Of a stretch of 64,000 nucleotides of DNA, positions 38,923-64,000 are shown in pieces. The notes under the pieces were generated by a model. That model was given only the letters and a program-made list of their open reading frames with translations. It ran no database searches and was not told the origin of the DNA. Source of the stretch: Candidatus Blastococcus massiliensis AP3 (lineage in GTDB: Bacteria > Actinomycetota > Actinomycetes > Mycobacteriales > Geodermatophilaceae); the NCBI RefSeq assembly GCF_000582785.1, contig NZ_HG931175.1, forward strand, positions 432,588 to 496,587. Direction: 5' to 3'. A program made the translations under genes and the position numbers. Numbering within the stretch: the stretch's first letter is position 1; each line of letters begins with the position of its first letter.

Positions 38923-39145
38923 CCCGCCTGCTCCTCCCTGGTCCGCGCGCCTCGTACCCCCCAACATCCACCCGAACCCGAGTCCTGAGCGACACGAGCA
39001 GCAGCTCGGCCGCGTCGCTGCGAACGGGAGGGGTCTCCAAGGGACCGCCCGATCAACGGCCTGCGAGGCATCTTCGGGGAGGGTGGTCGAGTCCCCGGTC
39101 GAACGCCACCCACGACTCGCCTCGCCCACCCGGAACTGTCGTAGG

Positions 39146-46026: not shown

Positions 46027-46518
46027 GTGATCGAAGCCACCCCGACCGGAGCGCGGACGGTCGCCCGTCTGGCCCGGCACGTCGAGGTGGCGCTGGCCGG
46101 CTGCGAGCTCACCGTGCCCCAGTACCGGCTGCTGGCCCTCCTCTCCGAGGGCTCGGTGAACGCATCGACGCTCGCCCAGCGGCTCGTGGTGAGCCGGCCG
46201 AGCGTCACCGCGCTCGTCGACGGCCTGGTCGCCCGCGGCATGGTCGAGCGGGGCACCGATCCGGCCGACCGCCGGCACGTCACCCACCTGGTGACCGAGC
46301 GCGGTCAGGCCGTGCTCGACCAGGCCGACCACACCGCGGCCGCCCGCCTGGCCGACCTCTCCACCCACCTCTCCCCCGACGACGTGCCCGCCGCCCGCGC
46401 GGGCCTCGCCGCGTGGGAACGGGCGCTCGACTCGTACCGGGACACGGCCGCCCGCACTCCGCACTGGCCCCGCGCCGGGGACGCGCGCACGCCGCAGGAA
46501 TCGGAGGTCGCCCCGTGA
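46027..46518 (+). CDS. MarR-family transcriptional regulator
   Basis: A 163-residue winged-helix MarR protein. Recognition-helix region: LAQRLVVSRPSVTALVDGLVARGMVERGTDPADRRHVTHLVTERGQAVLD (about 49-98), including the wing motif DRR. It should bind palindromic DNA and respond to an aromatic or acyl-CoA ligand. The GTG at 46027 has no Shine-Dalgarno sequence; the -10-like element just upstream suggests leaderless initiation. The stop overlaps the acyl-CoA synthetase start by four bases (GTGA), and the operon then runs through two acyl-CoA dehydrogenase genes, so it most likely regulates its own degradation operon, as BadR/FerC-type MarR proteins do. Confidence 0.9.
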   Translation: MIEATPTGARTVARLARHVEVALAGCELTVPQYRLLALLSEGSVNASTLAQRLVVSRPSVTALVDGLVARGMVERGTDPADRRHVTHLVTERGQAVLDQADHTAAARLADLSTHLSPDDVPAARAGLAAWERALDSYRDTAARTPHWPRAGDARTPQESEVAP

Positions 46519-49508: not shown

Positions 49509-50621
49509 GTGCTGATGCAGTTCGACAAGGAGCAGGAGGAGCTGCGGCGGACGCTGCGGCGCTTCCTCGAGACCAAGTCCTCATCCGAGGAGGTCCGCCG
49601 CCTCATGGAGACCGAGGAGGGCTACGACCCGGCCGTCTGGTCCCAGATGGCCGAGCAGCTGGGCCTGCAGGGTCTGGCCATCCCCGAGGAGTACGGCGGC
49701 TCGGGCTTCAGCATCCTCGAGACGGCGCTCGTGGCCGAGGAGATGGGCCGCGCGCTGCTGCCCGCCCCCTACCTGGCCACCGTCCTCGCCGCCAACCTGC
49801 TCCAGCTCTCCACCGACGAGCAGGCCAAGGCCGACCTCCTGCCCGGCATCGCCGAGGGCACGACCATCGCCACCGTCGCGCTCGCCGAGGCCGGCGGACA
49901 GTGGACCGCCGAGAACCTGCAGACCCGCGCCAGCGGCTCCGGCGACGCCTGGACGCTGGACGGCCAGAAGTCCTTCGTCCTCGACGGGCACACCGCCGGC
50001 CTGCTGCTCGTCGTCGCCCAGGCCCCCGGCGGCCCGAGCGTCTTCGCGGTGGAGGGCTCGGCCACCGGCCTGGACCGCCGGGCGCTCCAGACGCTCGACA
50101 TGACCCGCAAGCTCGCCGAGGTCACCTTCGCCGGCACCCCCGCCCGGCTCGTCGGCTCGGAGGGCGACGCCACCGCGCTGGTGCCGAAGCTGATGCGCAT
50201 CGCCACGGTGGTCCTCGCCGCCGAGCAGGTCGGCGGCGCCCAGCGCTGCCTGGAGCGCACTGTCGAGTACGTCAACCTGCGCTACCAGTTCGGCCGCCCC
50301 GTCGGCAGCTTCCAGGCGGTCAAGCACCGCTGCGCCGACATGCTGCTCGAGGTGGAGTCGGCACGATCCGCGGCCTACTACGCGCTGTGGGCACTGGCCG
50401 AGGACGCCGACGACGCCGCGATCTCGGCGGACCTGGCCAAGGCCTTCTGCTCGGAGGCCTATTGGCTCGCAGCCTCGGACTCGATCCAGCTGCACGGCGG
50501 CATCGCCTTCACCTGGGAGCACGACGCGCACCTGTACTACCGGCGCGCCAAGTCCACCGGGCTGCTCTTCGGTACCCCGACCGAGCACTGGGACGCGGTG
50601 GCCGAGCACCTGCTCGCCTGA
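49509..50621 (+). CDS. Acyl-CoA dehydrogenase (FadE-like, short partner)
   Basis: A 370-residue acyl-CoA dehydrogenase of the shorter, more divergent type that often pairs with another FadE as an alpha2beta2 complex. Blocks: LRRTLRRFLETKSSSEEVRRLMETEEGYDP, LGLQGLAIPEEYGGSGFSILETALVAEEMGRALLPAPY, CLERTVEYVNLRYQFGRPVGSFQAVKHRCADMLLEVES, and the catalytic-loop region IQLHGGIAFTWEHDAHLYYRRAK with the Glu of WEHD. The FAD Ser/Thr-rich motif near EAGGQW is degenerate compared with TEPxAGSD, which supports a partner role. GTG 49509 follows GAGAGG. It is the last gene before a strong terminator; 76 bp separate it from the first ACAD. Confidence 0.92.
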   Translation: MLMQFDKEQEELRRTLRRFLETKSSSEEVRRLMETEEGYDPAVWSQMAEQLGLQGLAIPEEYGGSGFSILETALVAEEMGRALLPAPYLATVLAANLLQLSTDEQAKADLLPGIAEGTTIATVALAEAGGQWTAENLQTRASGSGDAWTLDGQKSFVLDGHTAGLLLVVAQAPGGPSVFAVEGSATGLDRRALQTLDMTRKLAEVTFAGTPARLVGSEGDATALVPKLMRIATVVLAAEQVGGAQRCLERTVEYVNLRYQFGRPVGSFQAVKHRCADMLLEVESARSAAYYALWALAEDADDAAISADLAKAFCSEAYWLAASDSIQLHGGIAFTWEHDAHLYYRRAKSTGLLFGTPTEHWDAVAEHLLA

Positions 50622-50737: not shown

Positions 50738-51490
50738 ATGTGCCATGACCACGACAGCCGCCCGCCCGCCCCACCGCGTCGTGGGGACGTCGCCGAGCGG
50801 GCCGCCCTGACCCTCACCGCCGCAGACGGGACGCGCTTCGCCGCCGCGTACGCCGCGCCGGAGAGCACACCCGGCGCCGGCGTCGTCGTGCTGCCGGACA
50901 TCCGCGGCCTGCACCCGTACTACGTGGCCCTGGCCGAGCGGTTCGCCGAGGCCGGCCTCGCCGCGGTGGCGATCGACTGGTTCGGCCGCACCGCGGGCCT
51001 GCCGAAGGCGGGCACGCGCGAGGAGGCCTTCGCCTGGCAGGACCACATCCCGCGGACGACGCCGGCCGGCATCGACGCGGACGTCGTCGCCGCCATGGCG
51101 GCGCTCCGGGAGCGGCACGGCGCGGACCTGCCGGTCGTCACGGTGGGCTTCTGCTTCGGCGGCAGCCACTCCTGGCGCCTGTCGGGCGCCGACCTCGGCC
51201 TCGCCGGATGCGCAGGCTTCTACGGCCGGCCGTCGCTGGTGGGCGACGCCGCGGACCGCGCTCACCTGCCCACGGTGATGCTGATCGCCGGCGCCGACGC
51301 GGCGACACCGGTCGAGGAGCAGCTCGCGCTCGCCGAGCGGATGCGCAGCGCCGGCGCCGAGGTCGACGCCCCGGTCTACGAGGGCGCCCCGCACTCCTTC
51401 TTCGATCGCTCCTACGGCGACTGGGCCGACGCCTGCCGGGACGCCTGGGAGCACGTGCTGGCGCTCACCGACCGGGTCGCGCGCGCCTGA
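50738..51490 (+). CDS. Dienelactone-hydrolase-family protein
   Basis: A 250-residue alpha/beta hydrolase of the dienelactone hydrolase family with a typical MCHDHDSRPP start. The nucleophile Cys is in GFCFGGSHS (about 135), the His in GAPHSFFDRS near the end, and the Asp in IAGADAATP. It could open a dienelactone from chloroaromatic degradation, but many family members have other ester substrates. Starting ATG 50738: a -10-like TAGAAC (50726-50731) lies seven bp upstream, so the message may be leaderless. It stands alone between the fadE terminator and a bidirectional hairpin. Proximity to the fadD/fadE operon suggests related carbon use, but no shared regulation is seen. Confidence 0.9.
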   Translation: MCHDHDSRPPAPPRRGDVAERAALTLTAADGTRFAAAYAAPESTPGAGVVVLPDIRGLHPYYVALAERFAEAGLAAVAIDWFGRTAGLPKAGTREEAFAWQDHIPRTTPAGIDADVVAAMAALRERHGADLPVVTVGFCFGGSHSWRLSGADLGLAGCAGFYGRPSLVGDAADRAHLPTVMLIAGADAATPVEEQLALAERMRSAGAEVDAPVYEGAPHSFFDRSYGDWADACRDAWEHVLALTDRVARA

Positions 51491-51568: not shown

Positions 51569-52594
51569 TCAGATGGCCGATGCCCCTCGGGACTCGCCGG
51601 TGGCCTGCTCCCCCACCAGCGGGAAATGGCAGGCGACGAACTGCGCCGTCGCCACCTCCCGCATCTGGGGCTCCTCGGCCGCGCAGAGATCCGCGGCCCG
51701 CGGGCACCGGGTGCGGAACCGGCAGCCGCTCGGCGGGTCGACCGGAGAGGGCAGCTCCCCCGACAGCCCGGCGTCGTCGTGCTTGGCGTCCGGATCCGGC
51801 TGCGGGATGGAGGCCAGCAGCGCGGCCGTGTACGGGTGCGCCGGGTGCGCGTAGAGCGTGTCCGACGGTGCCACCTCGCAGATCTTGCCGAGGTACATGA
51901 CGGCGACCCGGTCGCTGATGTTCTTCACCACGGCCAGGTCGTGGGCGATGAAGACCATGGTCAGGTGGAACTCGGCCTTGAGGTCCTCGAGCAGGTTGAG
52001 GATCTGGGCCTGCACCGAGACGTCCAGCGCGGACACCGGCTCGTCGCAGATCAGCACCTCCGGCCGCATGATCAGCGAGCGGGCGATGGACACCCGCTGG
52101 CACTGACCACCGGACAGCTCGTGCGGACGTCGACCACCGGCGCGCTCGGGGTCGAGACCGACCTCGGCCAGGAGCTCGTCGACCCGCGGGTCGTCGGCGC
52201 CCTTGTTCTCCCAGATGGACAGGCCCTCCGCGACGATGTCCCGCACCCGGCGGCGCGGGTTCAGCGAGGAGATCGGGTCCTGGTAGATCATCTGGAGCTT
52301 CGTCCGGCTGCGGCGGAGCTCGTCCGAGGACAGGCTGCTCAGGTCCTTGTCACCGAAGATCACCTTGCCGCCCGTGGGACGGGGCGCCTGCATGATCGCC
52401 CGCCCGGTCGTGGACTTGCCACAGCCGGACTCCCCCACCAGGCCCAGGGTCTCGCCCTTCGCGATGTCGAAGCTGATCCCCGACACGGCGTGGACCTTCT
52501 GCCCGCGCTCCAGCGGGAACTCCACGACGAGTCCCTCGACGCGCAGGACGATGTCGTCGGAGTCCCGCAGGTGCGCGGTACCGGTGCCGGCCAT
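51569..52594 (-). CDS. Oligopeptide/dipeptide ABC transporter ATPase, OppF/DppF type
   Basis: A 341-residue ABC ATPase. Walker A GESGCGKST (about 52-60), Q-loop QDPISS, signature LSGGQCQR (the Cys in place of Arg is normal for OppF), Walker B VLICDEPVSALD and switch His in FIAHDLAVV. The C-terminal oligopeptide-transport domain holds the Cys-rich motif CRFRTRCPRAADLC with a later C, as in members that bind an Fe-S cluster. It energises import through the permeases encoded upstream in the same operon. Its ATG overlaps the OppD-type stop by one base (TGATG). It is the last gene of the SBP-permease-permease-ATPase-ATPase operon. Substrate is inferred as peptide or a similar small solute. Confidence 0.95.
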   Translation of the reverse strand: MAGTGTAHLRDSDDIVLRVEGLVVEFPLERGQKVHAVSGISFDIAKGETLGLVGESGCGKSTTGRAIMQAPRPTGGKVIFGDKDLSSLSSDELRRSRTKLQMIYQDPISSLNPRRRVRDIVAEGLSIWENKGADDPRVDELLAEVGLDPERAGGRRPHELSGGQCQRVSIARSLIMRPEVLICDEPVSALDVSVQAQILNLLEDLKAEFHLTMVFIAHDLAVVKNISDRVAVMYLGKICEVAPSDTLYAHPAHPYTAALLASIPQPDPDAKHDDAGLSGELPSPVDPPSGCRFRTRCPRAADLCAAEEPQMREVATAQFVACHFPLVGEQATGESRGASAI

Positions 52595-53694
52595 CAGGCG
52601 GCCCCTGCCGCTGCGATGGCGGCCGCGTCCAGCGGCGTCCCGGCCGCGGTGCGTCCCGCGGCCAGGTTGCGCTCGAGCGCCTCCTTTCCGGCGGCGGTGC
52701 CGACCGGGAAGTGGCAGGCTGCCTCGTGCCCGGGGGCATGGGGCGCCAGGGGCGGCGTCTCCGTCAAGCATCGCTCCTGTGCGTAGTTGCACCGCGGGGC
52801 GAACGCGCACCCCGCGGGCGGGTCGACAAGGTCCGGCGGGCGGCCCGGGATGGCGGCCAGCCTGGTGTGGCTCGGCTGGTGCAGCCGCGGGATGGACCGC
52901 AGCAGACCCTCCGTGTACGGCATGCGGTACCGCGCGAACAGCTCGCGCGTCGGCGCCCGCTCGACGATCCGGCCGGCGTACATGACGGCGATCTCGTCGG
53001 CCCGACCGGCGACCACGCCGAGGTCGTGCGTGATGATGATCATGCCCATGTTGCGCTCGGCCTGCTGCTGGGCGAGCAGGTCGAGGATCTGCCGCTGGAC
53101 GGTCACGTCGAGGGCTGTCGTCGGCTCGTCGGCGACGAGCAGCTTCGGACCGCAGGCCAGCGCGATCGCGATGGTGACGCGCTGACGCATGCCGCCCGAC
53201 AGCTGGTGCGGGTACTCCCCCAGCCGCCGCTCCGCCGCGGGGATCCCCACGGAACGGAGCAGCTCCACGGCGTGCGCCTTGGCGACCTTCCCCTTCTCGT
53301 CGAGGTGGATCCCCAGGGACTCGGTGATCTGGTCGCCGATCCGCGTGACCGGGTTCAGCGACGTCATCGGGTCCTGGAGGACCATCGCCATCTCCGCGCC
53401 CCAGATCCGGCGCATCTCCTTGTTCTTCATGGTCGTCAGCTCACGACCCTCGAAGCGCACCGAACCCTCGCGGATCGTGTTGTTCTTCGGCAGCAGGTTC
53501 ATGATCGACCGGCTGAGCACGGTCTTCCCGGAACCGGACTCGCCCACGATGCCGAGCGTCCTGCCCCGGTCGACCCGGAGGGAGACGCCGTCCACCGCCT
53601 TCACCACGCCCCGCGGGGTGTCGAAGAAGGTGCGGAGGTCGTCCACCTCCAGGAGCGGCTCGCCGGCTCGGGCGTCCAGCTGCGCGGTGGTCAC
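52594..53694 (-). CDS. Oligopeptide/dipeptide ABC transporter ATPase, OppD/DppD type
   Basis: A 366-residue ABC ATPase. Walker A is [12 protein letters not shown]-loop [10 protein letters not shown], signature LSGGMRQRV, Walker [15 protein letters not shown] and switch His IITHDLGVV. The C-terminal Cys motif reads [14 protein letters not shown] with a downstream C. The last 40 residues ([18 protein letters not shown]) are a variable tail. It forms the second ATPase of the heterodimeric Opp/Dpp-type motor with OppF. The GTG start at 53694 overlaps the permease stop by four bases (GTGA), giving tight translational coupling. RBS-like sequence is inside the upstream gene's end. Confidence 0.95.
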
Positions 53695-54620
53695 AGGTTG
53701 CTCCCTCGGACGTCGAACTTGCTGCGGAGCGAGTCGCCGACAAGGTTCAGCGACAGCACCGTGAGGAACATGGCCAGGGAGGGGATCAGCACGGCGTGCG
53801 GAGCCTCGTTGAGGTACCGCTTGCCGTCGAAGATCATCCCGCCCCAGGTCGGGGTCGGCTGCTCCACGCTGAGGCCGAGGAAGGCGAGCGTGCCCTCCAG
53901 GACGATCACGACGCCCATCGCGACGAGCCCGAAGGCGGCCACCGGCAGCACGACGTTGGGGAGGATCTCCCGGGCCAGGACCCGGGAGTTCTTGGCCCCC
54001 ATCGTCCGGGCGGCACGCACGAACTCCCGTTCCGCGACCGCCAGCGTCGTGGCTCGCGCGACGCGGGTGTAGATCGGGATCGACAGGAAGCCGACGATCA
54101 GCGAGATGACGACCAGGCTGCGGCCGACGAAGGCCAGCAGGACCAGCAGCAGGATCAGGGCCGGGAAGGCCAGGATGATGTTGATGATCGTCATCAGGAC
54201 GGTCTCGAGCTTCCCGCGGAAGAAGCCCGAGATGATCCCGAGGAAACCGCCGAGCACCATGCCGATGGTCACGGCCGTGACGCTGATGACCACCGAGACG
54301 CGGGCCCCGTGCACCAACCGCGCGAGCGTGTCACGCCCGAGGCCGTCGGTGCCCAGCAGTGCCTCGCTGTTCGGCAGGGCCAGCTTGTTGATCACGTCGG
54401 GCCGGAACGGGTCCTTGACCGGCAGGATGTCGGCGAAGACGGCGCAGATCAGCACCACGATCAGCCAGGTCGCCGCCAGCCAGAAGCCCCAGCCGAAGCC
54501 CTTGCGGCGCTTCTTGCCCGGGGCGGCCTCGGTGGACGTCGCCAGGTCGGCGTCCACCAGCCCGGCGCTGCTGGGTGCCCCCGGGTGCGGAGCACCCAGG
54601 TTCGGTGCCGGCGCGGTCAT
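53691..54620 (-). CDS. Oligopeptide/dipeptide ABC transporter permease, OppC/DppC type
   Basis: A 309-residue membrane permease. A 35-residue N-terminal cytoplasmic region ending KKRRKGFGWG precedes helix 1; the family's OppC_N segment follows (FADILPVKDPFRPDVINKLALPNSEALLGTDGLGRD). The BPD_transp_1 core has the EAA loop RAARTMGAKNSRVLAREILPN, which docks on the ATPase. About six helices are seen. It forms the channel with the OppB-type permease encoded 42 bp upstream in the operon. ATG 54620 gives MTAPAPNLG. Its last four bases overlap the next gene. The order B-C-D-F matches the standard Opp arrangement. Confidence 0.95.
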   Translation of the reverse strand: MTAPAPNLGAPHPGAPSSAGLVDADLATSTEAAPGKKRRKGFGWGFWLAATWLIVVLICAVFADILPVKDPFRPDVINKLALPNSEALLGTDGLGRDTLARLVHGARVSVVISVTAVTIGMVLGGFLGIISGFFRGKLETVLMTIINIILAFPALILLLVLLAFVGRSLVVISLIVGFLSIPIYTRVARATTLAVAEREFVRAARTMGAKNSRVLAREILPNVVLPVAAFGLVAMGVVIVLEGTLAFLGLSVEQPTPTWGGMIFDGKRYLNEAPHAVLIPSLAMFLTVLSLNLVGDSLRSKFDVRGSNL

Positions 54621-54662: not shown

Positions 54663-55625
54663 TCAGACTCGTGCCGCAGAGCGTCCATGCGAGATCCTCG
54701 GGTCCAGGAATGAGTACAGGATGTCGACGGTGAAGTTCACGACGACGTAGCTGACGGCGATCACGAGCGCGACGCCCTGCACCATCACGAGATCGCGCTG
54801 CACCACCGAGTCGAAGAGGAGCCGCCCGACACCCGGGAGGGCGAACAGCGTCTCGATGACCACGGAGCCACCGATGATCGCTCCCACCTGGACGCCCGCG
54901 ACGGTCATCAGCGAGAAGGACGACGGGCGCAGGGCGTGCCGGAACAGGATGCGCCGGTCCGACACCCCCTTCACCCGGGCCATGGTCACGAAGTCCTGCT
55001 GGAGGGTCGCGATCATGTCCGTCCGCAGCAGCCGCGTGTAGACCGCCATCTCGGCGATCGCCAGCGACAGGGCCGGCAGCAGCGCCGAGCGGAGGTTCTG
55101 CGCCGGGTTGTCGGTGAAGTTGACCCAACCCGTCGCCGGCAGCACGCCCAGCCAGACCGCGAACACGAAGATCAGCAGGATGGCGACCATGAAGTTCGGC
55201 ACCGCCAGCAGGCCGAAGCTCGTCCCGCTGATCGCCCGGTCCGTGGCCTGGCCGGCCCGGTAGGCCGACAGCATGCCGAGCGGGATGGCGCAGATCAGCG
55301 CGATGAGGATGGCCAGGAGGCCGATCTCCGCCGTCACCGGCAGCCGCTCGAGGATCGCGTTCGCGACCGGCTCGTTCGTCCGGTACGACCGACCGAAGTC
55401 ACCGGTCAGCGCGTCACCGAGCCAGTTGATGTACTGGATCGGCAGCGGATCGTCGAGGCCGAGGTCGGCACGGACGGTCCTGATCGCCTCGGGCGTCGCG
55501 TTCTCCGCGCCCAGGATCTGCAGCGCCGGGTCACCGGGCAGCAGGGTCGTGAGCAGGAACGTCAGCACCGACACCGCGAACAGCGTGGCCAGCAGCGAGG
55601 GGATCCGCTGGAGGACGTAGCGCAT
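54663..55625 (-). CDS. Oligopeptide/dipeptide ABC transporter permease, OppB/DppB type
   Basis: A 320-residue permease with about six membrane helices. It begins with MRYVLQRIPSLLATLFAVSVLTFLLTTLLPGDPA, the OppB N-terminal helix and LPGDPA motif, and carries a cytoplasmic EAA loop at FVTMARVKGVSDRRILFRHALRPS. The region PNFMVAILLIFVFAVWLGVLPATGW is also family-typical. ATG 55625 is 5 bp after the stop of the first solute-binding-protein gene, so these are co-transcribed. The four membrane and ATPase genes end in the hairpin at 51503-51547. The permease pair seems to be the only one for the several binding-protein genes in the window. Confidence 0.95.
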   Translation of the reverse strand: MRYVLQRIPSLLATLFAVSVLTFLLTTLLPGDPALQILGAENATPEAIRTVRADLGLDDPLPIQYINWLGDALTGDFGRSYRTNEPVANAILERLPVTAEIGLLAILIALICAIPLGMLSAYRAGQATDRAISGTSFGLLAVPNFMVAILLIFVFAVWLGVLPATGWVNFTDNPAQNLRSALLPALSLAIAEMAVYTRLLRTDMIATLQQDFVTMARVKGVSDRRILFRHALRPSSFSLMTVAGVQVGAIIGGSVVIETLFALPGVGRLLFDSVVQRDLVMVQGVALVIAVSYVVVNFTVDILYSFLDPRISHGRSAARV

Positions 55626-55630
55626 CGGCG

Positions 55631-57304
55631 TTACTCCACTCGCCAGACGTGGGCCCACATGGCCGTCGAGGCGTTGGCCCCGTTGCCCTTGGTGCCGTCG
55701 GGGAAGGTCCAGCCGTCCAGGTTGCGGATCGACTCGTCGGTGGCCAGCACCGTCAGTGTGCCGCCGCTGAAGGCGTTCGGCACGTTCTCGTTCAGGATCA
55801 GGCCGATCTCCTCGACGGCGGCCTTGCGGGCGTCGGTGTCCGTCGTCGTGCGCAAAATCTCGAGCTGCTCGTCGATGCCCTCGTCCTGGAACGCGGTCAT
55901 GTTCAGCGGGCCGTCGGTGAAGGCGTCGTCGAAGACCAGGTACGGGTCACGGTCGGCGCCGACGCGGGTGCAGCCGGTGTCGTAGTCGCGAGCCAGCATG
56001 TCCTGGATCCAGGCCGCCTGCTCCGTCGGCTGCAGCTGGACCTGGGCACCCAGGTTGCTCCACAGCGCCTGGTAGAGCTGCGAGAGCTCGTTGAGGCTGG
56101 GGTCCGGCGGGCACTGGAAGGTGAACGAGAGGTTCTCGCCGACCGGCTTGCCGTCGCTGCGCTCCGGGTCGTTGATGTACTCGTCGTAGAGCTCCTGGGC
56201 CTTCTCCGGGTCGAAGCCCGGGTAGGTGTCGGCGACCTCCTCGGAGTACCAGGGGCTGTCCGGGCTCCAGAACTGGGTCTGGGGAGGCGTGACGCCGGAA
56301 CCGCCGAGGACCTCGATCAGGCCCTCCTGGTCGACGGCGTGCACCAGGGCCTGACGCACCCGGACGTCGTCGAACGGCGGCCGGCTGGTGTTGAGCGTCA
56401 GACCGCCGGAGTTGCTGCCGAGGTGCTCGAAGTTGTTGACGTTGTCGAAGTCGCGCGCCTGGATGACGGTGCTCTGCCGCAGCGACTGCATGACGTCGAT
56501 GTCACGGCTGCGCAGGCTCTGGAGGCGGGTGTCCTCGTCGGGGATCGGCCGGAAGGTGATCTGGTCGAGGTAGGGCATGCCCTCCTGCCAGTAGTCCTCG
56601 TTCTTCTCGACCACCAGGCGGCTGTCGCGCTGCCAGCTGACGAACCGGAAGGGCCCGGTACCCACCGGGTTGGCGCCCGCGTCGGGGCCGGCCGCGGCCG
56701 CGGCCGTGGGCGAGAACGGCCAGCCGGCCGCACCGACCAGCTGGTCGGGGAAGGCGGCGTTGGTCTGCGAGAGCGTGTACGTGGCGGTGAGCTCGTCGAC
56801 GACGTCCAGCGAGGTCACTTCAGCGAGCTGGGCGGCCAGTCGCGAATCGGGCGCCTTGAGGTAGGTGTCGAAGACCGTCTTCAGCGCCTCGGCGTTGAGC
56901 GGGGTGCCGTCGTGGAAGGTCACGCCGGGACGCAGCGTCAGCGTCCACTCGGTGAGGTCCTCGTTGGGCTCCAGCGACTCGGCGAGGTAGGGCCGGACCT
57001 GACCGTCCTCCGCGCGCTGCATCAGCGGGTCGTAGATCGCGTACGCGACGTTGAGGCCGGGCTGGTTGAAGGTGCCCTCGCTGGGCAGCCAGCTGTTGGT
57101 CTCGGCCTCCAGCCCCACGGTGATGGAGCCACCCTCGACCGGGTCACCGGCCTCGACGGACTCGCTGACCGCGCCCGCTTCGGCGTCCTCCCCGTCCCCG
57201 CTGCCACCGCCACAGGCGGCGGTTCCCAGCAGGAGACCCACGAGCCCCGCGGACGCGAGCGCGCGCCTCCACGGGCCTCTCGTCGGGCGCCGATGTCCAA
57301 GCAT
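55631..57304 (-). CDS. Family 5 solute-binding lipoprotein (SBP1), operon with OppBCDF-type genes
   Basis: A 557-residue extracytoplasmic SBP_bac_5 protein. Lipoprotein signal: basic MLGHRRPTRGPWRR, hydrophobic ASAGLVGLLLGTAAC with lipobox GTAAC near residue 29. The mature part shows AYAIYDPLM, LTLRPGVTFHDGTPLNAEAL and GANPVGTGPFRFV, the family's central ligand-binding folds, and a shared C-terminal block TGCTRVGADRDPYLVFDD. It would capture peptide-like ligand for the permease encoded 5 bp downstream. ATG 57304 has AAGGAG at 7 nt. It is one of at least five tandem paralogues and the only one directly fused transcriptionally to the permease genes. The C-terminus ends MWAHVWRVE, close to the others. 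Confidence 0.95.
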   Translation of the reverse strand: MLGHRRPTRGPWRRALASAGLVGLLLGTAACGGGSGDGEDAEAGAVSESVEAGDPVEGGSITVGLEAETNSWLPSEGTFNQPGLNVAYAIYDPLMQRAEDGQVRPYLAESLEPNEDLTEWTLTLRPGVTFHDGTPLNAEALKTVFDTYLKAPDSRLAAQLAEVTSLDVVDELTATYTLSQTNAAFPDQLVGAAGWPFSPTAAAAAGPDAGANPVGTGPFRFVSWQRDSRLVVEKNEDYWQEGMPYLDQITFRPIPDEDTRLQSLRSRDIDVMQSLRQSTVIQARDFDNVNNFEHLGSNSGGLTLNTSRPPFDDVRVRQALVHAVDQEGLIEVLGGSGVTPPQTQFWSPDSPWYSEEVADTYPGFDPEKAQELYDEYINDPERSDGKPVGENLSFTFQCPPDPSLNELSQLYQALWSNLGAQVQLQPTEQAAWIQDMLARDYDTGCTRVGADRDPYLVFDDAFTDGPLNMTAFQDEGIDEQLEILRTTTDTDARKAAVEEIGLILNENVPNAFSGGTLTVLATDESIRNLDGWTFPDGTKGNGANASTAMWAHVWRVE

Positions 57305-57396
57305 GTGATTACTCCTTGACGAGTTGCGTACCGGCACAGCGACGGCATGCGGCAGGCAGGCGCGTTGATGTGCGAGCGCCCAGAGCGCGTGCTCGG

Positions 57397-57427
57397 AGTC
57401 TGTACTACGGCAGTGGGCTGCGTCACT
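57397..57427 (-). promoter_or_regulatory. SBP1 promoter/operator module
   Basis: Minus-strand -35 GTGACG (57421-57426) and -10 CAGACT (57397-57402), 18-bp spacer. The palindrome-like AGTGA-N6-CCACT (57412-57427) overlaps the -35; one arm base differs from the other copies. A GTCAC-type half-site lies 15 bp farther upstream (57443-57447, inverted here). The -10 is about 93 nt from the ATG. Confidence 0.6.
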
Positions 57428-57596
57428 AGGCGCCTTGCCACGGTCACCGGCCGCTGGACTATGCGGTGCGCACAACGCCCTTGTCAGCGCCCGGCGGGGG
57501 GCCTCCGGAGCAGCTCGGCGCCGTGCGCAGGAACCGCTCGGACCGGGCGGTTCCCGGGCGTGTCGCAGCGCCGTGGCCAGGGTCCGGGTGCGGGGG

Positions 57597-57635
57597 CACG
57601 ACGGCCCGGGCGACGAGGTCGCCCGGGCCGTCGTG
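57597..57635 (-). terminator. Terminator of SBP2
   Basis: An 18-bp perfect stem (57597-57614 and 57618-57635) with a GAG loop starts 13 nt past the SBP2 stop. Its GGCCCGGGCG core is shared with the hairpin after SBP5. Confidence 0.9.
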
Positions 57636-57648
57636 GTGCATCGAGGGA

Positions 57649-59316
57649 CTAGCCGGTCACCCAGACGTGCGCCCACATGGTGTCCGCGTTGGCGGCACCG
57701 TTGCCCTTGGTGCCGTCCGGGAACACCCAGCCGTCGATGTTCTTGACCTCCTCACGGGCGGCCAGGACGGTGAGCGTGCCACCGGCGAACGTGTGGATCG
57801 CCTCCTCGTTGAGCACCAGGCCGATCTCCTCGACCGCGGCCTTGCGCTCGTCGAGGTCGGTGGTGCTCTTCAGGATGTCCAGCTGCTCGTCGATGTCCGG
57901 GTGCTGGAAGGCCGACATGTTCAGCGGCCCGTCGGTGAAGGCGTTGTCCAGCGTGATGTACGGGTCGCTCTCACCGCCCACCCGCGTGCACCCGGTCTGG
58001 TAGTCGCGAGCGAGCATGTCCTGGATCCAGGCCGCCTGCTCCGTCTGCTGGAGCTGGACCTGTGCCCCCAGGTCGCCCCACAGCGACTGGATGATCTGGG
58101 AGAGCTCGTTGAGGCTCGGGTCCGGCGGGCACTGGAAGGTGAAGGAGAGGTCCTCGCCGACCGGCCGGCCGTCGGAGCGGTCGGGGTCGTTGATGTACTC
58201 GTCGTACAGCTCCTGGGCCCGCTCGGGGTCGTACGACGGGTAGGCCTCGGCCACCTCCTCGGACCAGTAGGGGCTGTCCTCGCTGAAGAACTGCGTCTGC
58301 GGCGGCGTGATGCCGGCTCCGCCGAGCGTCGCGATCAGCTGCTCCTGGTCCAGGGCGTGCGCCAGCGCCTGGCGCACCCGGACGTCGTCGAAGGGCGCGA
58401 CGCTGGTGTTCAGCGTCGTCGCGCCAGCGTTGCTGCCGAGGTTCTCGTAGTTGCTGACGCCGTCGAGGTCGCGGGCGCGGACGATGGTGCTCTGCCGCAG
58501 CGACTGCATCACGTCGATGTCACCGCTCTGCAGGCTCTGGAAGCGGGTGTCCTCGTCGGGGATCGGCCGGAAGGTGATCTTGTCGAGGTACGGCAGACCG
58601 TCCTGCCAGTAGTCCTCGTTCTTCTCGACCACCAGGCGGCTGTCCCGCTGCCATTCGACGAACCGGAACGGGCCGGTGCCGACCGGGTTGGCGCCGGCGT
58701 CGGGACCCGCGGCCGCCGCGGCGGTGGGCGAGAACGGCCAGCCGGCGGCGGTGATCAGCGCGTCCGGGAAGGCGGCGTTGGTCTCCGCGAGGTTGTACGT
58801 GACGGTGAGGTCGTCGACGACGTCCATCGACTCGACCTCGGCGAGCGACGCGGCCAGCCGTGAACCGGGGGCCTTGAGGTAGTCGTCGAAGACCGTCTTG
58901 AGCGCCTCGGAGTTCAGCGGCGTCCCGTCGTGGAAGCTGATGCCCTCGCGCAGCGTCAGCGTCCACTGGGTGAGGTCCTCGTTGGCCTCCAGCGACTCGG
59001 CCAGGTAGGGCTCGACCGAGCCGTCCTCCGCGCGCTGCATCAGCGGGTCGTAGATCGCGTGCGCGACGGTCAGGCCCGGCTGGTTGAAGGTGCCCTCGCT
59101 GGGCAGCCAGCTGTTGGTCTCGGCCTCCAGCCCGACGGTGATCTCGCCGCCCTCGACCGGGTCACCCGCCTCCGTGGCATCGACGATGGCGCCTTCTCCG
59201 GAGTCCCCGTTGCCGTTCCCGCTGCCGCAGGCGGCGCTCCCCAGTAGCAGGGCCGCCAGCCCGGCGGACGCGAGCGTCCGGCTCCAGGGGGCTCTCATCG
59301 GCCGATGTCCTCGCAT
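57649..59316 (-). CDS. Family 5 solute-binding lipoprotein (SBP2)
   Basis: A 555-residue lipoprotein, paralogue of SBP1. Signal: MRGHRPMRAPWSRTLASAGL, then AALLLGSAAC with lipobox GSAAC. The mature domain includes AHAIYDPLM, LTLREGISFHDGTPLNSEAL, GANPVGTGPFRFVEWQRDS and the C-terminal TGCTRVGGESDPYITLDN. Ligand-contact loops differ from SBP1 (for example IIQSLWGDLGAQVQLQQ for LYQALWSNLGAQVQLQP), consistent with a different specificity. ATG 59316 follows GGAGAGG at 6-7 nt. It has its own promoter module (59401-59431) and its own strong terminator, so it is transcribed apart from SBP1 and the permease genes, on which it presumably depends. Confidence 0.94.
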   Translation of the reverse strand: MRGHRPMRAPWSRTLASAGLAALLLGSAACGSGNGNGDSGEGAIVDATEAGDPVEGGEITVGLEAETNSWLPSEGTFNQPGLTVAHAIYDPLMQRAEDGSVEPYLAESLEANEDLTQWTLTLREGISFHDGTPLNSEALKTVFDDYLKAPGSRLAASLAEVESMDVVDDLTVTYNLAETNAAFPDALITAAGWPFSPTAAAAAGPDAGANPVGTGPFRFVEWQRDSRLVVEKNEDYWQDGLPYLDKITFRPIPDEDTRFQSLQSGDIDVMQSLRQSTIVRARDLDGVSNYENLGSNAGATTLNTSVAPFDDVRVRQALAHALDQEQLIATLGGAGITPPQTQFFSEDSPYWSEEVAEAYPSYDPERAQELYDEYINDPDRSDGRPVGEDLSFTFQCPPDPSLNELSQIIQSLWGDLGAQVQLQQTEQAAWIQDMLARDYQTGCTRVGGESDPYITLDNAFTDGPLNMSAFQHPDIDEQLDILKSTTDLDERKAAVEEIGLVLNEEAIHTFAGGTLTVLAAREEVKNIDGWVFPDGTKGNGAANADTMWAHVWVTG

Positions 59317-59400
59317 GTGTTGCCTCTCCGATCCACGATGCCGGCAGCACAGCGACAATCGATCGACGTCGATGTGCGGCGCTCCCTAGAGCGCCTCGGG

Positions 59401-59431
59401 AGTCTGGCTCAGATCAGTGAGCGAAGTCACT
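59401..59431 (-). promoter_or_regulatory. SBP2 promoter/operator module
   Basis: Minus-strand -35 GTGACT (59425-59430) and -10 CAGACT (59401-59406), 18-bp spacer. A perfect AGTGA-N6-TCACT palindrome lies at 59416-59431 and a GTGAC half-site at 59447-59451, 15 bp upstream. A GCGCTC-CCTA-GAGCGC hairpin (59379-59394) lies at the probable transcript start. Confidence 0.65.
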
Positions 59432-59508
59432 AGCTGTGTCCAGCCTGTGACCAGGCCCACACGGTGGGGTGACACGAGGCCGGGGCGCGTCCTGTCGCAC
59501 GACGCACG

Positions 59509-59572
59509 GCGGCGGTCCCGGGACCTGGTCCCGGGACCGCCGCGCGGCCAGGGCCTGAGTGGCTGGGCCCTG
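59509..59572 (-). terminator. Terminator region of SBP3 (two stems)
   Basis: Reading away from the SBP3 stop at 59583, first a 7-bp stem (CAGGGCC/GGCCCTG, 59549-59555 with 59566-59572), then a 15-bp perfect stem (59509-59523 with 59529-59543, loop CCTGG). Confidence 0.8.
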
Positions 59573-59582
59573 ATAGTCCGGT

Positions 59583-61262
59583 CTAGTCGGCCAGCCAGAC
59601 GTAGGCCCACATGGTCGTCGCGCCCGGGACGCCGTTGCCCGCCGTGCCGTCCGGGAACTCCCAGCCGTCGACGTTCTTCACCTGCTCGCGCACCGCGACG
59701 TCGGTGAGGGTGTAGCCGGTGAACAGGTTCGGCACGTTCTCGGAGATGTCCAGGCTGATCGCCTCGACGGCTGCCTGCCGGTCCGCCAGGTCCGTGGTGG
59801 TACGCAGGATCTCCAGGTTCTCGTCGATGACGGCGCTGGTGTAGCCGGTGAAGTTCAGCGGCCCGGCGGTGAACGCGTCCTTCAACGTGAAGTACGGGTC
59901 GGTCTCCGCGCCCACCCGCCAGCACTGCACGTCGTAGTCCTTCGCCAACCCGTTCTGGATGTGCGCGGCCTGCTCGACCGTGTTGAGCGAGACGTCGATC
60001 CCGAGGTCGCTCCAGAACGACTGGTAGAGCTGGGAGAGCTCGTTGAGGCTCGGGTCCGGTGGGCAGTTGTACGTGAACGAGATGTCCGTGCCCACCGGCT
60101 GGCCGTCCGACCGCGCCGGGTCGTTGATGTACTCGTCGTACAGCTCCTGCGCCCGCTCGGGGTCGTAGACGGGGAAGGCCTCGGCGGCCTCCTCCGAGTA
60201 GAAGGGGCTGTCCGGGCTGAAGTACTGGGTGGCGTCCGGGGTGAGCCCGGTGCCGCCGATGACGTCGATCAGCGCGGGCTGGTCGATGCCGTGGGCCAGC
60301 GCCTGCCGCACCCGGACGTCGTCGAACGGCGGCTTGCTGGTGTTGATGATCGACCCGCCGCTGTTGTTGCCCAGGTACTCGTAGTTGTCCACCCCGTCCA
60401 GGTCGCGGGCGCGGGCGACGGTGCTCTGCCGCAGGGTCTGCATGACGTCGATGTCACCGCTCTGCAGGCTCTGGAAGCGAGTGTCCTCGTCGGGGATCGG
60501 CCGGAACGTGATCCCGTCCAGGTAGGGCAGGCCCTCCTGCCAGTAGTCCTCGTTCCTCTCCACGACGAGGCGGCTGTCCCGCTGCCACTCGACGAACCGG
60601 AACGGCCCCGTGCCCACGGGGTTGGCGCCGGCGTCGGGGCCGGCGGCGGCCGCGGCGGTCGGGGAGAACGGCCAGCCGGGCGAACCGGTCAGCACGTCCG
60701 GGAAGGCGGCGTTGGGCTCCTCGAGGACGTACTGCACGGTGAGGTCGTCCACCACGTCCAGCGAGGTGACGTCGGCCAGCCGGTTGGCGACGTTGGACGT
60801 AGGAACGGTGAGGTACTCGTCGAAGATCGTCTTGAGCGCCTCGCCGTTCAGCGGCGTGCCGTCGTGGAACTGGATGCCCTCCCGCAGCGTCAGGGTCCAG
60901 GTCGTGAAGTCCTCGTTCGGCTCCATCGACTCGGCGAGGTACGGCTGGAGATCACCGTCCGCGGTCTGCTTGATCAGCGGGTCGTAGATCGCGTACGCGA
61001 CCGTGGTGCCCGCATTGGCGAAGCTGCCCTCGCCGGGGATCCAACCGTTGGTCTCGGCCTCGAGCCCCACCGTGATGGTGCCCCCGGTGACCGGCTCGCC
61101 CTGCTCGGAGATCTGGTCGGGTCCGACGCCTCCGGAAGTGTCGCCCCCGCCCGCTCCGTCGTCCGCACCGCAGGCCGCGGCGCCGAGCAGCAGGGCCGCG
61201 ACGCCCGCGGAGGCGAGCACGCGCCTCCAGGAAGTTGTCGCCGGCCGACGATGTCCTCGCAT
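59583..61262 (-). CDS. Family 5 solute-binding lipoprotein (SBP3), most divergent of the set
   Basis: A 559-residue lipoprotein, paralogue of SBP1/2. Signal MRGHRRPATTSWRRVLASAG, AALLLGAAAC with lipobox GAAAC. The shared middle (AYAIYDPLI, GANPVGTGPFRFVEWQRDS) is intact, but the C-terminal ligand side departs from the others: NGLAKDYDVQCWRVGAETDPYFTLKD replaces the TGCTRVG block, and the acidic spacer after the lipobox is longer (GADDGAGGGDTSGGVGPDQ). It is the best candidate for a changed ligand. ATG 61262 has AAGGAG seven nt upstream; the in-frame GTG six bases earlier is too close. It has its own promoter module and terminator. Confidence 0.94.
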   Translation of the reverse strand: MRGHRRPATTSWRRVLASAGVAALLLGAAACGADDGAGGGDTSGGVGPDQISEQGEPVTGGTITVGLEAETNGWIPGEGSFANAGTTVAYAIYDPLIKQTADGDLQPYLAESMEPNEDFTTWTLTLREGIQFHDGTPLNGEALKTIFDEYLTVPTSNVANRLADVTSLDVVDDLTVQYVLEEPNAAFPDVLTGSPGWPFSPTAAAAAGPDAGANPVGTGPFRFVEWQRDSRLVVERNEDYWQEGLPYLDGITFRPIPDEDTRFQSLQSGDIDVMQTLRQSTVARARDLDGVDNYEYLGNNSGGSIINTSKPPFDDVRVRQALAHGIDQPALIDVIGGTGLTPDATQYFSPDSPFYSEEAAEAFPVYDPERAQELYDEYINDPARSDGQPVGTDISFTYNCPPDPSLNELSQLYQSFWSDLGIDVSLNTVEQAAHIQNGLAKDYDVQCWRVGAETDPYFTLKDAFTAGPLNFTGYTSAVIDENLEILRTTTDLADRQAAVEAISLDISENVPNLFTGYTLTDVAVREQVKNVDGWEFPDGTAGNGVPGATTMWAYVWLAD

Positions 61263-61344
61263 GTCCACACTCCTTGACAGGGGGCGCGCCGGGTGCGGAG
61301 CCCGCTGACCAGCGCGTTGGGGCGCCCGAGCGGCGCGTGAGCGG

Positions 61345-61375
61345 AGTCTGGTCCACGACCATGACGTACGTCACT
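61345..61375 (-). promoter_or_regulatory. SBP3 promoter/operator module
   Basis: Minus-strand -35 GTGACG (61369-61374) and -10 CAGACT (61345-61350), 18-bp spacer. The palindrome at 61360-61375 reads AGTGA-N6-TCATG, weaker in one arm. GTGAC half-site at 61391-61395, 15 bp upstream. A short GACCT/AGGTC stem near 61410-61422 is the only terminator-like sequence after SBP4. Confidence 0.6.
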
Positions 61376-61431
61376 CATCGCAGCCGAACTGTGACCCGGA
61401 CCACAGGGACCTCACAGGTCGGGCTGCCTCG

Positions 61432-63096
61432 TCAGTCCGTCACCCACACGTGGCCCCACATGACCTGGGCACTCGCCGCGCCGTTGCCCTTCGTGCCTCC
61501 GGGGAAGATCCAGCCGTCGATGTTCTTCACCTCGTCGCGGGCCGCCATGACCGTCAGCGTCCCGCCGCTGAAGGTGTTGGGGACGTTCTCGTTGATCACC
61601 AGCCCGATGGCCTCGACGGCGGCCTTGCGCTCGTCCACGTCCGTGGTGGTCCGCAGGATGTCCAGCTGCTCGTCGATCTCGGGGTGCTGGAAGGCCGTCA
61701 TGTTGAGCGGACCGTCGGTGAAGGCCGCGTCGAAGACCAGGTAGGGGTCCCGGTCGGCGCCCACGCGGGTGCACCCCGTGTCGTAGTCCCGGGCGAGCAT
61801 CATCTGGATCCAGGCGGCCTGCTCGACCTGCTGGAGCTCGACCTGCGCGCCGAGCTCGCCGTAGAGCGACTGCACCAGCTGTGCGACCTCGTTGAGGCTC
61901 GGGTCGGGCGGGCAGGAGTAGGTGAACGCCAGGGGCGTGCCCACCGGCTTGCCGTCCGAACGCTCCGGGTCGTCGACGTAGGAGTCGTACAGCTCCTGCG
62001 CCTTCTCGAGGTCGTACTCCGGATAGGCCTCCGCCACCTTCTCCGAGTAGTACGGGCTGTCCTCGCTGTAGAACTGGGTCGTCGGGGGCGTGACGCCGGC
62101 ACCACCGAGGACCTCGATGATCGCTTCCTGGTCCAGCGCGTGGGCCAGGGCCTGGCGCACCCGGATGTCGTCGAACGGCGGCTTGCTGGTGTTGACCGTC
62201 CCGCCGCCGGAGTTGCTGCCGAGGTGCTCGTAGTTGCTGACCCCGTCGAGGTCGCGGGCCCGGATGACCGCGCTCTGCCGCAGCGACTGCATCACGTCGA
62301 TGTCACCGCTCTGCAGGCTCTGCAAGCGGGTGTCCTCGTCCGGCATCGGCCGGAAGACGATCCGGTCCAGGTAGGGCAGCCCCTCCTGCCAGTAGTTCTC
62401 GTTCCGCTCCAGCACGATCTGGCTGTCGCGCTGCCAGCTGACGAACCTGAAGGGGCCGGTACCGACCGGGTTGGCACCCGCGTCCTCGCCGAACTGCGCG
62501 GCGGCGGTCGGCGAGAAGGGCCAGCCGGGCGAGGAGACCAGCAGCTCGGGGAACGCCGCGTTCGCCTGCGAGAGCCGGTAGACGGCGGTGAGGTCGTCGA
62601 CGACGTCGAGCGAGTCGACCTCCGCGAGCGACGCCGCGGTGTTCGAGTCCGGTGCCGTCAGGTACTCGTCGAAGATCGTCTTGAGCGCCTGGGCGTCGAG
62701 GGGCGTGCCGTCGTGGAACAGGACTCCCGGGCGGAGCGTCAGCGTCCACTCGGTGAGCTCCTCGTTGGGCTCGAGCGACTCCGCCAGGTAGGGCTCGAGT
62801 TCGCCGTCCTCGTTGCGGTGCATCAGCGGGTCGTAGAGCGACCAGGCGACGTTGACCCCGGGCTGGTTGAAGGTCCCCTTGCCGGGGAGCCAGCTGCTGG
62901 TCTCGGCCTCGAGCCCGACCGTGATCTCGCCGCCCCGGACCGGGTCCCCCGCGTCCGCGGCGTCGACCACCGCCCCTTCGCCGACCTCCCCGTTGCCACC
63001 TCCGCAGGCGGCACTCCCCAGCAGGAGAGCCACCAACCCCGCCGAAGCCACCACCCGCCGCCACGGGCCTCTCGTCGGCCGCCGATGTCCTCGCAT
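61432..63096 (-). CDS. Family 5 solute-binding lipoprotein (SBP4)
   Basis: A 554-residue lipoprotein, paralogue of SBP1-3. Signal MRGHRRPTRGPWRRVVASAG, VALLLGSAAC. Mature blocks: AWSLYDPLMHRNEDGE, LTLRPGVLFHDGTPLDAQAL, GANPVGTGPFRFVSWQRDS and TGCTRVGADRDPYLVFDA. The segment AAQFGEDAGANP differs from AAAAAGPDAGANP of the others. The C-terminal block is close to SBP1, so those two may share ligands. ATG 63096 has GGGAGG about nine nt upstream; an in-frame GTG at 63117 is less likely. No strong hairpin is seen between its stop and the SBP3 promoter, unlike at SBP2, SBP3 and SBP5. Confidence 0.94.
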   Translation of the reverse strand: MRGHRRPTRGPWRRVVASAGLVALLLGSAACGGGNGEVGEGAVVDAADAGDPVRGGEITVGLEAETSSWLPGKGTFNQPGVNVAWSLYDPLMHRNEDGELEPYLAESLEPNEELTEWTLTLRPGVLFHDGTPLDAQALKTIFDEYLTAPDSNTAASLAEVDSLDVVDDLTAVYRLSQANAAFPELLVSSPGWPFSPTAAAQFGEDAGANPVGTGPFRFVSWQRDSQIVLERNENYWQEGLPYLDRIVFRPMPDEDTRLQSLQSGDIDVMQSLRQSAVIRARDLDGVSNYEHLGSNSGGGTVNTSKPPFDDIRVRQALAHALDQEAIIEVLGGAGVTPPTTQFYSEDSPYYSEKVAEAYPEYDLEKAQELYDSYVDDPERSDGKPVGTPLAFTYSCPPDPSLNEVAQLVQSLYGELGAQVELQQVEQAAWIQMMLARDYDTGCTRVGADRDPYLVFDAAFTDGPLNMTAFQHPEIDEQLDILRTTTDVDERKAAVEAIGLVINENVPNTFSGGTLTVMAARDEVKNIDGWIFPGGTKGNGAASAQVMWGHVWVTD

Positions 63097-63187
63097 GCGC
63101 TCGTCCTCCCCGTCCACGTCGACTGCGGCACAGCGACCGGTCCGGAGGTCCCGGCGGCGCTGTGCGACCGCGCTGGCGCGCGCTGGG

Positions 63188-63218
63188 AGTGTGGACCACG
63201 GGAGTGAGCCACGTCACT
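63188..63218 (-). promoter_or_regulatory. SBP4 promoter/operator module
   Basis: Minus-strand -35 GTGACG (63212-63217) and -10 CACACT (63188-63193), 18-bp spacer. A perfect AGTGA-N6-TCACT palindrome is at 63203-63218, with a GTGAC half-site at 63234-63238, 15 bp upstream. The palindrome is centred near -30, a position suited to repression. Confidence 0.65.
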
Positions 63219-63269
63219 ACCTGCCGCCGAACTGTGACAGCGAGTCCCTGTCGCGCGACGTCCGGACGG

Positions 63270-63306
63270 CACAGCGGCCCGGGCGATGTCCGCCCGGGCC
63301 GCTGTG
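63270..63306 (-). terminator. Terminator of SBP5
   Basis: A 16-bp perfect stem (63270-63285 with 63291-63306, loop ATGTC), 37 nt past the SBP5 stop, sharing the GGCCCGGGCG core with the SBP2 terminator. Confidence 0.88.
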
Positions 63307-63308
63307 GA

Positions 63309-63340
63309 GATCAGCTGTGTGGATCAGCTGTGTGGATCAG
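63309..63340. repeat. Short tandem direct repeat (13 bp x 2.5)
   Basis: GATCAGCTGTGTG occurs at 63309-63321 and 63322-63334, followed by a partial GATCAG (63335-63340), in the spacer between the SBP5 stop and its hairpin. No function is evident; it is probably slippage. Confidence 0.9.
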
Positions 63341-63343
63341 GAC

Positions 63344-64000
63344 TCAGTCGGTCACCCAGGCCTGTCCCCACATGGCGGTCGCGTTCGCCGCGCCGTTGCC
63401 CTTGGTGCCGTCCGGGAAGACCCAGCCGTTCAGGTTCTTCACCGCGTCACGGGTGGCGATGACGGTGAGCGTGGCCGCGGTGAAGGTGTTGGGCACGTTG
63501 GCGTTGAGCACCAGCCCGATCTCCTCGACGGCGGCCTTGCGGGCCTCGAGGTCGGTCGTGCTCTTGAGGATCTCGAGCTGCGCGTCGATCTCGGGGTCCT
63601 GGAACGCCGTCATGTTCAGCGGGTTCGGCTGGAAGGCCTGGCTGAAGACGATGTAGGGGTCCCGGTCGTTGCCCACGCGGGTGCAGCCGACCTCGTAGTC
63701 ACGGGCCAGCATCTTCTGGATCCAGGCAGCCTGCTCGACCTGGCTCAGCTGCACCTCGGCACCCAGGGCGGTCCAGAACGCCTGGTACAGCTGCGAGAGC
63801 TCGTTGAGGCTCGGGTCCGGCGGGCACTCGAAGGTGAACGACAGGTTCTCCCCCACCGGCTTGCCGTCGCTGCGCTCGGGGTCGTTGATGTAGGAGTCGT
63901 ACAGCTCCTGGGCCTGGTCGAAGTCGTACGACGGGTACGCGTCCTCGACCGCCTGCGAGTAGTACGGCGAGTCGGGGCTGAAGTACTGCGTCTGCGGCGG
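63344..64000 (-). CDS. Family 5 solute-binding protein (SBP5), C-terminal fragment
   Basis: The C-terminal 218 residues of a fifth paralogue; the gene continues past the right edge, so its signal, promoter and start are not visible. The visible part begins PPQTQYFSPDSPYYSQAVED and includes NDPERSDGKPVGENLSFTFECPP, LYQAFWTALGAEVQLSQVEQAAW, EVGCTRVGNDRDPYIVFSQAF and an end MWGQAWVTD. It matches SBP1 and SBP4 closely in the DPERSDGKPVG region. It stops on a TGA at 63344 and is followed by a hairpin. More members of the array may lie beyond the window. Confidence 0.93.
   Translation of the reverse strand, partial: PPQTQYFSPDSPYYSQAVEDAYPSYDFDQAQELYDSYINDPERSDGKPVGENLSFTFECPPDPSLNELSQLYQAFWTALGAEVQLSQVEQAAWIQKMLARDYEVGCTRVGNDRDPYIVFSQAFQPNPLNMTAFQDPEIDAQLEILKSTTDLEARKAAVEEIGLVLNANVPNTFTAATLTVIATRDAVKNLNGWVFPDGTKGNGAANATAMWGQAWVTD

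Follow-up and report, generated by a model that had tools for sequence, protein, structure and literature searches.

Six tandem solute-binding lipoprotein genes beside a single Opp/Dpp-type importer in Blastococcus

The right-hand part of a 64,000-nucleotide (nt) stretch of Candidatus Blastococcus massiliensis AP3 (contig NZ_HG931175.1, positions 432,588 to 496,587; 'the window') carries genes for an Opp/Dpp-type ATP-binding cassette (ABC) importer, oppBCDF, and, adjoining them, a tandem array of genes for solute-binding proteins (SBPs) that are lipoproteins (Table 1). The source genome is 3.87 Mb in size and its closest named relatives are Blastococcus. A preliminary description of the window had counted at least five SBP genes, head to tail on the same strand; the arrangement stands, on the minus strand, and the count rises to six, as reading the contig past position 64000 placed the start of SBP5 and added a sixth gene, SBP6. 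Pfam assigns the SBP_bac_5 domain to both array proteins scanned (SBP1 and SBP3), and all six array SBPs exceed the curated PF00496 cut-off in a profile search of the genome. The chosen ATG codons give proteins of 554–562 amino acids (aa), each with a lipobox of the Gram-positive form, ...AAC(G), and its cysteine at residue 30–33 (6/6, called by eye and by script). The genes are separated by 344, 266, 169, 247 and 245 bp, and the proteins are 66.4–77.5% identical in pairs. As described earlier, only SBP1 is joined to oppBCDF, by a 5-bp gap to oppB, and hairpins follow SBP2, SBP3 and SBP5; a strong hairpin also follows SBP6 (z −4.49), and none as strong lies 3′ of SBP4 (z −0.83).

Two permease subunits and two ATPases with the oligo_HPY extension mark the importer as Opp/Dpp-type; the open frame of oppF extends to 52810, within oppD. 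Half of the genome's 12 SBP_bac_5 genes above the cut-off belong to the array, and there are five OppB-type genes. Each of the other four OppB genes adjoins its own SBP_bac_5 gene (three of these SBPs were also found by tblastn), and a genome-wide OppB search found no such gene on the array's contig besides the array's own. After this pairing, one permease is left for the six SBPs of the array plus a single orphan from their family (C2:263368). The 16 kb around this orphan contain no Opp match, and the more distant twelfth SBP_bac_5 gene (C3:631157) has none in 19 kb. A second permease set to the right of SBP2–SBP5 was looked for as well, and blastp with the array Opp proteins found none up to window coordinate 75000. 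In gene content the locus thus combines six paralogous SBPs with one oppBCDF, and the use of one importer by several receptors is well supported and has precedents. The earlier view of a single importer core served by a set of receptors, which prove to be old and diverged, agrees with the single OppB on the contig, with the 66–77% identity among paralogs and with their tree.

Arrays of four to six SBPs occur in seven genomes, and their flanking genes agree up to the limits of the sequence stretches. Six SBP genes each are present in the source genome, CCUG 61487, aggregatus and DSM 44205, and four each in aurantiacus and TF02-09; TML/M2B has six SBP places, one of them broken (SBP5-like) and one without an in-frame lipobox (SBP3-like). 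The broken copy in Blastococcus sp. TML/M2B (L057, L056; G011:C2:458534-475645) is split by a stop and a frame change, and oppC and one nearby acyl-coenzyme A (acyl-CoA) dehydrogenase gene of that genome also look split, so a sequence error is possible. Single-copy relatives were found within Blastococcus in G008 and G020 (single SBP, 51% identical) and in G012. Nine of the 23 genus genomes contain the family, with a best SBP4 match at an E value of 1.3e-151 or better, as against 1.7e-45 at best in the 14 others. In a phylum-wide draw the family was present at 1e-110 or better in 3 of 396 genomes, the source genome included; three candidates were scored per genome, so that this figure describes presence and not copy number. 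Two or three related SBPs lie close together in other actinobacterial records (L083, L088, L093 and L115) and in G194; the uncultured actinobacterial records L083 and L093 have at least three in tandem, and L093 ends within the third.

In a tree of 58 SBPs, the SBP6 and SBP4 clades hold members from all seven genomes, the SBP1 clade from five and the SBP2 clade from four (bootstrap 99–100 for these clades). The SBP5 group is less resolved, with the window SBP5 and aurantiacus SBP1 unplaced, and the SBP3 group, orphans included, branches first. Both trees that we built leave out the broken SBP5-like copy from TML/M2B and retain its lipobox-less SBP3-like copy (G011_3). The window SBPs are about 79–87% identical to array proteins of the same type elsewhere, compared with 66–77% among themselves. 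Because the same neighbours recur in seven genomes and the SBP lineages span species, the main duplications are old and predate the separation of these genomes. A recent duplication of identical genes, for which we also looked, is ruled out by the paralog identities and the tree, and no two array genes were found to share an identical DNA tract of more than 56 nt. Ratios of non-synonymous to synonymous substitution (dN/dS), obtained by counting, were 0.36–0.63 for paralogs and 0.18–0.38 for orthologs; we do not take them as evidence of selection, because third-position G+C content is about 95% and dS looks saturated.

The six lineages are best told apart at alignment columns that include 457, 394, 339, 432, 299–301, 429, 291 and 466–468. 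Thirteen of the top 20 fall in segments 286–345 and 386–470, versus 6.0 expected from the variable columns (P 0.002), although these segments were picked after inspection of the ranking, and the signal for simple clustering is borderline (P 0.053). Three columns survive a strict rule that demands at least 85% fixation in every clade and three or more residues. These clade tests used 42 of 44 ingroup rows (G011_3 and G009_1 omitted) and 9 of 14 outgroup rows. SBP3 had been singled out as having the most altered C-terminus, a claim that the outgroup reverses: at columns where it decides between SBP3 and SBP1, SBP2, SBP4 and SBP5, it agrees with SBP3 at five and disagrees at one, and because its residues side with SBP3 in this way, SBP3 looks ancestral rather than altered. 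Position 443 is aromatic in 13 SBP3-type and nine outgroup rows and Thr in 29 of 29 rows from the other five lineages. The neighbouring Arg444 is invariant in the clade-test rows and at least 90% conserved in alignment A2; our guess is that it contacts a carboxylate.

The upstream regions share a palindrome, AGTGAC-N4-STCACT, about 112–124 nt before most start codons, with ASACT 9–10 nt further on. This conserved, operator-like palindrome and the ASACT block upstream of the genes, rather than a mapped start site, support the earlier proposal that SBP2–SBP4 have their own promoters. With up to two mismatches the palindrome precedes 26 of 37 family genes (seven genes of DSM 44205, in L072 and L098, are not among the 37), as against 0.2 expected per 40 shuffled regions that keep mononucleotide but not dinucleotide composition, and ASACT stands at its fixed distance in 30 of the 37. 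The exact palindrome occurs three times in the source genome, each time before an array SBP (SBP2, SBP4 and SBP6), and at ten places in the six array genomes among the 23; assigned to genes from their coordinates, all ten precede family SBPs, two of which are orphans on other contigs. A 19-kb stretch (L013) contains five matches, all before SBPs (1, 2, 3, 4 and 6), and five were reached in 0 of 200 shuffles. In the SBP5 lineage a variant, AATGAC-KCTSCGCA, is conserved in five of five copies of these genomes, and the three single-copy relatives are without the motif. With the palindrome present at five of the six promoters, common control is likelier than separate expression; the statement that each gene is separately expressed was too strong, and five of the six SBPs, SBP5 excepted, are likely to be co-regulated. 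Through the 5-bp junction, the SBP1 palindrome probably also serves oppBCDF.

The palindrome resembles an operator of CRP/GlxR, for which the common consensus is TGTGAN6TCACA. The array sites start with AGTGA and mostly end with TCACT, and thus depart from it; TGTGAN6TCACA itself is present three times in the genome, each time away from the array. We rejected this candidate, as AGTGA-N6-TCACT occurs at only three genome places (3 of the 19 that match RGTGAN6TCACY), all in the array.

A gene upstream of SBP6 encodes a PucR-type protein, with 72.5 bits for the C-terminal helix–turn–helix domain HTH_30 (cut-off 27) and no match to another PucR domain in Pfam. Among the 23 genomes, an ortholog of at least 67% identity is present in six of six array genomes, and the best match in the 17 others is at most 39% identical. 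Inverted repeats of 17–24 bp are the binding sites of the PucR-type regulators GabR, AdeR and PutR (PMC7652997), a length near the 16 bp of the array's palindrome, which would be the site of the PucR-type protein; GabR of Corynebacterium glutamicum, as that source describes it in the text available, is likewise a local regulator beside catabolic genes. Because its ortholog is confined to array genomes and regulators of its type bind inverted repeats, the adjacent protein is the best candidate for, and the likely, regulator of the array.

Genes of acyl-CoA metabolism bracket the array. The plus-strand genes for a dienelactone hydrolase (DLH)-family protein, two acyl-CoA dehydrogenases and an acyl-CoA synthetase (FadD) lie downstream of oppF and point towards the array, and a further acyl-CoA dehydrogenase gene stands beyond SBP6. 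Two flanking dehydrogenases are nearest the PimD/IpdE2 and PimC models, well under their cut-offs (for TIGR03203 and TIGR03204, 197 versus 652.7 and 204.6 versus 623.85 bits), so they are not assigned as PimC or PimD. The four array SBPs scanned (of six), OppB and OppC remain under every NCBIfam cut-off listed, as do OppD and OppF among the best 25 of 186 and 189 matches; none of the four SBPs reached the cut-off of a named peptide, nickel or glutathione equivalog (DppA, OppA, NikA, GsiB or CntA). The single-copy relatives G008 and G020 have the order SBP–oppBCDF–acyl-CoA dehydrogenase–acyl-CoA dehydrogenase–FadD on one strand, and none of the source genome's four other Opp loci has a FadD match. 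The bracketing acyl-CoA genes suggest, weakly, that the array ligands are organic acids rather than peptides. The orphan SBP3-type gene of the source genome (C2:263368; L063:7312-9045) lies between genes for an alpha/beta hydrolase and PhyH (phytanoyl-CoA dioxygenase), and has the palindrome with one mismatch. Four genomes (L064, L065, L066 and L068) have an orphan SBP3-type gene at a conserved place near enoyl-CoA hydratase and methyltransferase genes, the neighbours having been scanned in the L064 copies.

We propose that the six lipoprotein receptors share OppBCDF, each membrane-anchored receptor capturing a different subset of related solutes and docking on the same permease. The main duplications would have taken place before the seven Blastococcus genomes separated, with most receptor types retained since. 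SBP1 is probably transcribed together with oppBCDF as one unit; a hairpin closes each of SBP2, SBP3, SBP5 and SBP6, and transcription of SBP4 may continue into SBP3. Each gene appears to have its own promoter region. A local regulator, for which the adjacent PucR-type protein is the most likely choice, probably controls the five with the shared palindrome jointly, SBP5 carrying the conserved variant. Carboxylic acids (fatty, dicarboxylic or cyclic) are the most likely solutes, and the flanking CoA ligase and acyl-CoA dehydrogenases would then degrade them. We put the probability of this explanation as a whole, with a shared OppBCDF, co-regulated receptors of differing specificity and carboxylic-acid ligands, at roughly two in three. 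A more specific form of it is tentative and less likely than not: an array-specific PucR regulon in which the palindrome was copied with each receptor gene, orphans too, giving six acid receptors for one permease, and from which SBP5 escaped through its variant site. The ligands may in that case be different fatty, dicarboxylic and cyclic acids, for example breakdown products of plant polymers.

Several results weigh against the proposal. The exact palindrome also occurs at five places in the 17 non-array genomes, and its four hits (up to two mismatches) in the 64-kb window were reached by 17 of 100 shuffles, although all four precede SBPs. Since the promoters of the array themselves supplied the pattern, the finding is its absence elsewhere and not its presence here. 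It was not found before the FadD, acyl-CoA dehydrogenase or PucR-type genes in the window and L013, and the founding PucR of Bacillus subtilis binds a non-palindromic site (PMC7652997). As to ligands, the third single-copy relative, G012 (L062), has SBP–oppBCDF only, and neither FadD nor acyl-CoA dehydrogenase is matched there; in the source genome, three of the four Opp loci outside the array have a weak acyl-CoA dehydrogenase match (28–32%) within about 5 kb; and only 8 of 20 non-Blastococcus loci (L079–L102), several of which end at contig ends, have a FadD or acyl-CoA dehydrogenase match. Gene context is therefore weak evidence for the ligand.

These ligand data leave some room for an importer of di- or oligopeptides or metal chelates that is served by six SBPs and has acyl-CoA genes as accidental neighbours. 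The fold family, the Opp/Dpp/Nik type of the permease, the best profile matches (NikA, GsiB and Opp4A) and the many solved relatives named peptide- or nickel-binding (among the best 60 of 101 matches) fit such an importer, as do the weak acyl-CoA dehydrogenase matches near three of the four other Opp loci; yet the four scanned SBPs reach no peptide or nickel equivalog, and the synteny with FadD and acyl-CoA dehydrogenases holds in array genomes and two of three single-copy relatives, so we regard it as doubtful. Paralogs of equal specificity, with the extra copies providing more receptor, or receptor at different times, for one ligand, would explain why copy number varies from four to six, which makes single receptors look dispensable, and why one palindrome is common to five of six SBPs. 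This we consider rather unlikely, given that the SBP lineages stayed distinct across the species split and that clade-specific residues are enriched in the two segments, which were chosen post hoc and keep three columns under the strict rule. There is little to recommend the idea that certain SBPs pass their ligands to a different permease, or serve in sensing or scavenging and not as importer receptors: orphan copies do lack an Opp match in the 14–16 kb around them and the genome has four other OppB genes, but each of those permeases has an adjacent SBP and the array adjoins the same oppBCDF in all seven genomes.

The preliminary description took one cognate binding protein to be usual for such importers. 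Published multi-receptor Opp/Dpp systems, among them tandem genes with their own promoters, make the array less unusual than it had implied; we compare them here as the available text of each source presents them. The Opp system of Borrelia burgdorferi has OppA1–A3 in tandem, each with its own promoter, and OppA4 and OppA5 on plasmids (PMC5736914). Like the array it combines tandem paralogous binding proteins beside shared Opp components with own promoters and extra copies elsewhere; unlike the array it has three tandem genes, two permease pairs and peptide ligands, and that text mentions no shared operator. In Pseudomonas aeruginosa PA14, DppA1–A5 serve one DppBCDF, as tested by mutants (PMC4206461). 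Four of the DppA genes cluster near DppBCDF and one is unlinked, as the array likewise has an orphan, whereas other genes lie among them, their ligands are di- and tripeptides and they encode periplasmic proteins of a Gram-negative bacterium. By analogy, the closest functional parallel would be RPA3723–3725 of Rhodopseudomonas palustris, clustered paralogs with ABC transporter genes next to the beta-oxidation operon pimFABCDE, RPA3725 being 71% and 60% identical to the other two; two of the three bind fatty and dicarboxylic acids with differing profiles, and one bound nothing in the assay (PMC3223731). These proteins, unlike the array's, come from a proteobacterium. The arrangement is thus already known in kind, and the array has more tandem genes than the Borrelia and PA14 systems, plus a shared palindrome; a literature search found no paper on the array itself. 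With six long-diverged receptors, one importer, seven genomes and single-copy relatives as outgroups, it forms a compact natural series and a clean test case for the evolution of binding-protein specificity by tandem duplication. If the guess about the ligands holds, some actinobacterial 'peptide' Opp systems import organic acids.

Table 1 Features of the SBP array and its surroundings (window coordinates)
Feature	Position	Strand	Basis or remark
Acyl-CoA synthetase (AMP-binding)	46500..48128	+	Pfam; start approximate, open frame from 46017
Acyl-CoA dehydrogenase	48173..49432	+	Profile scans
Acyl-CoA dehydrogenase	49509..50621	+	Nearest PimD/IpdE2 models, below their cut-offs
Dienelactone-hydrolase-family protein	50738..51490	+	Pfam DLH; same place in array genomes
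oppF-type ATPase	51569..52600	-	Pfam ABC_tran and oligo_HPY; kept in array genomes; start approximate
oppD-type ATPase	52594..53694	-	Pfam ABC_tran and oligo_HPY
oppC-type permease	53691..54620	-	Pfam BPD_transp_1
oppB-type permease	54663..55625	-	Pfam BPD_transp_1 and BPD_transp_1_N; 5 bp downstream of SBP1
SBP1 lipoprotein, 557 aa	55631..57304	-	Pfam PF00496; start and lipobox
Operator-like palindrome of SBP1	57412..57427	-	2 mismatches to AGTGACNNNNGTCACT
Hairpin after SBP2	57597..57635	-	z −3.95
SBP2 lipoprotein, 555 aa	57649..59316	-	Genome profile search; start and lipobox
Operator-like palindrome of SBP2	59416..59431	-	Exact to AGTGACNNNNSTCACT
Hairpin after SBP3	59507..59548	-	z −4.25; limits approximate
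SBP3 lipoprotein, 559 aa	59583..61262	-	Pfam SBP_bac_5; tree; column test; lineage closest to single-copy outgroup residues
Operator-like palindrome of SBP3	61360..61375	-	2 mismatches
SBP4 lipoprotein, 554 aa	61432..63096	-	Genome profile search; start and lipobox
Operator-like palindrome of SBP4	63203..63218	-	Exact to AGTGACNNNNSTCACT
Hairpin after SBP5	63270..63306	-	z −5.99
SBP5 lipoprotein, C-terminal part in window	63344..64000	-	Whole gene 63344-65014, start past window end
SBP6	65260-66948	-	Past window end
PucR-type regulator	67131-68402	-	Past window end, upstream of SBP6
Acyl-CoA dehydrogenase	68537-69850	+	Past window end, divergent from PucR-type gene

Farther from the array, a gene for an AI-2E-family transporter lies at 37480-39129 of the window, and a second, named by eye, seems to lie past the window end at 72223-73557.

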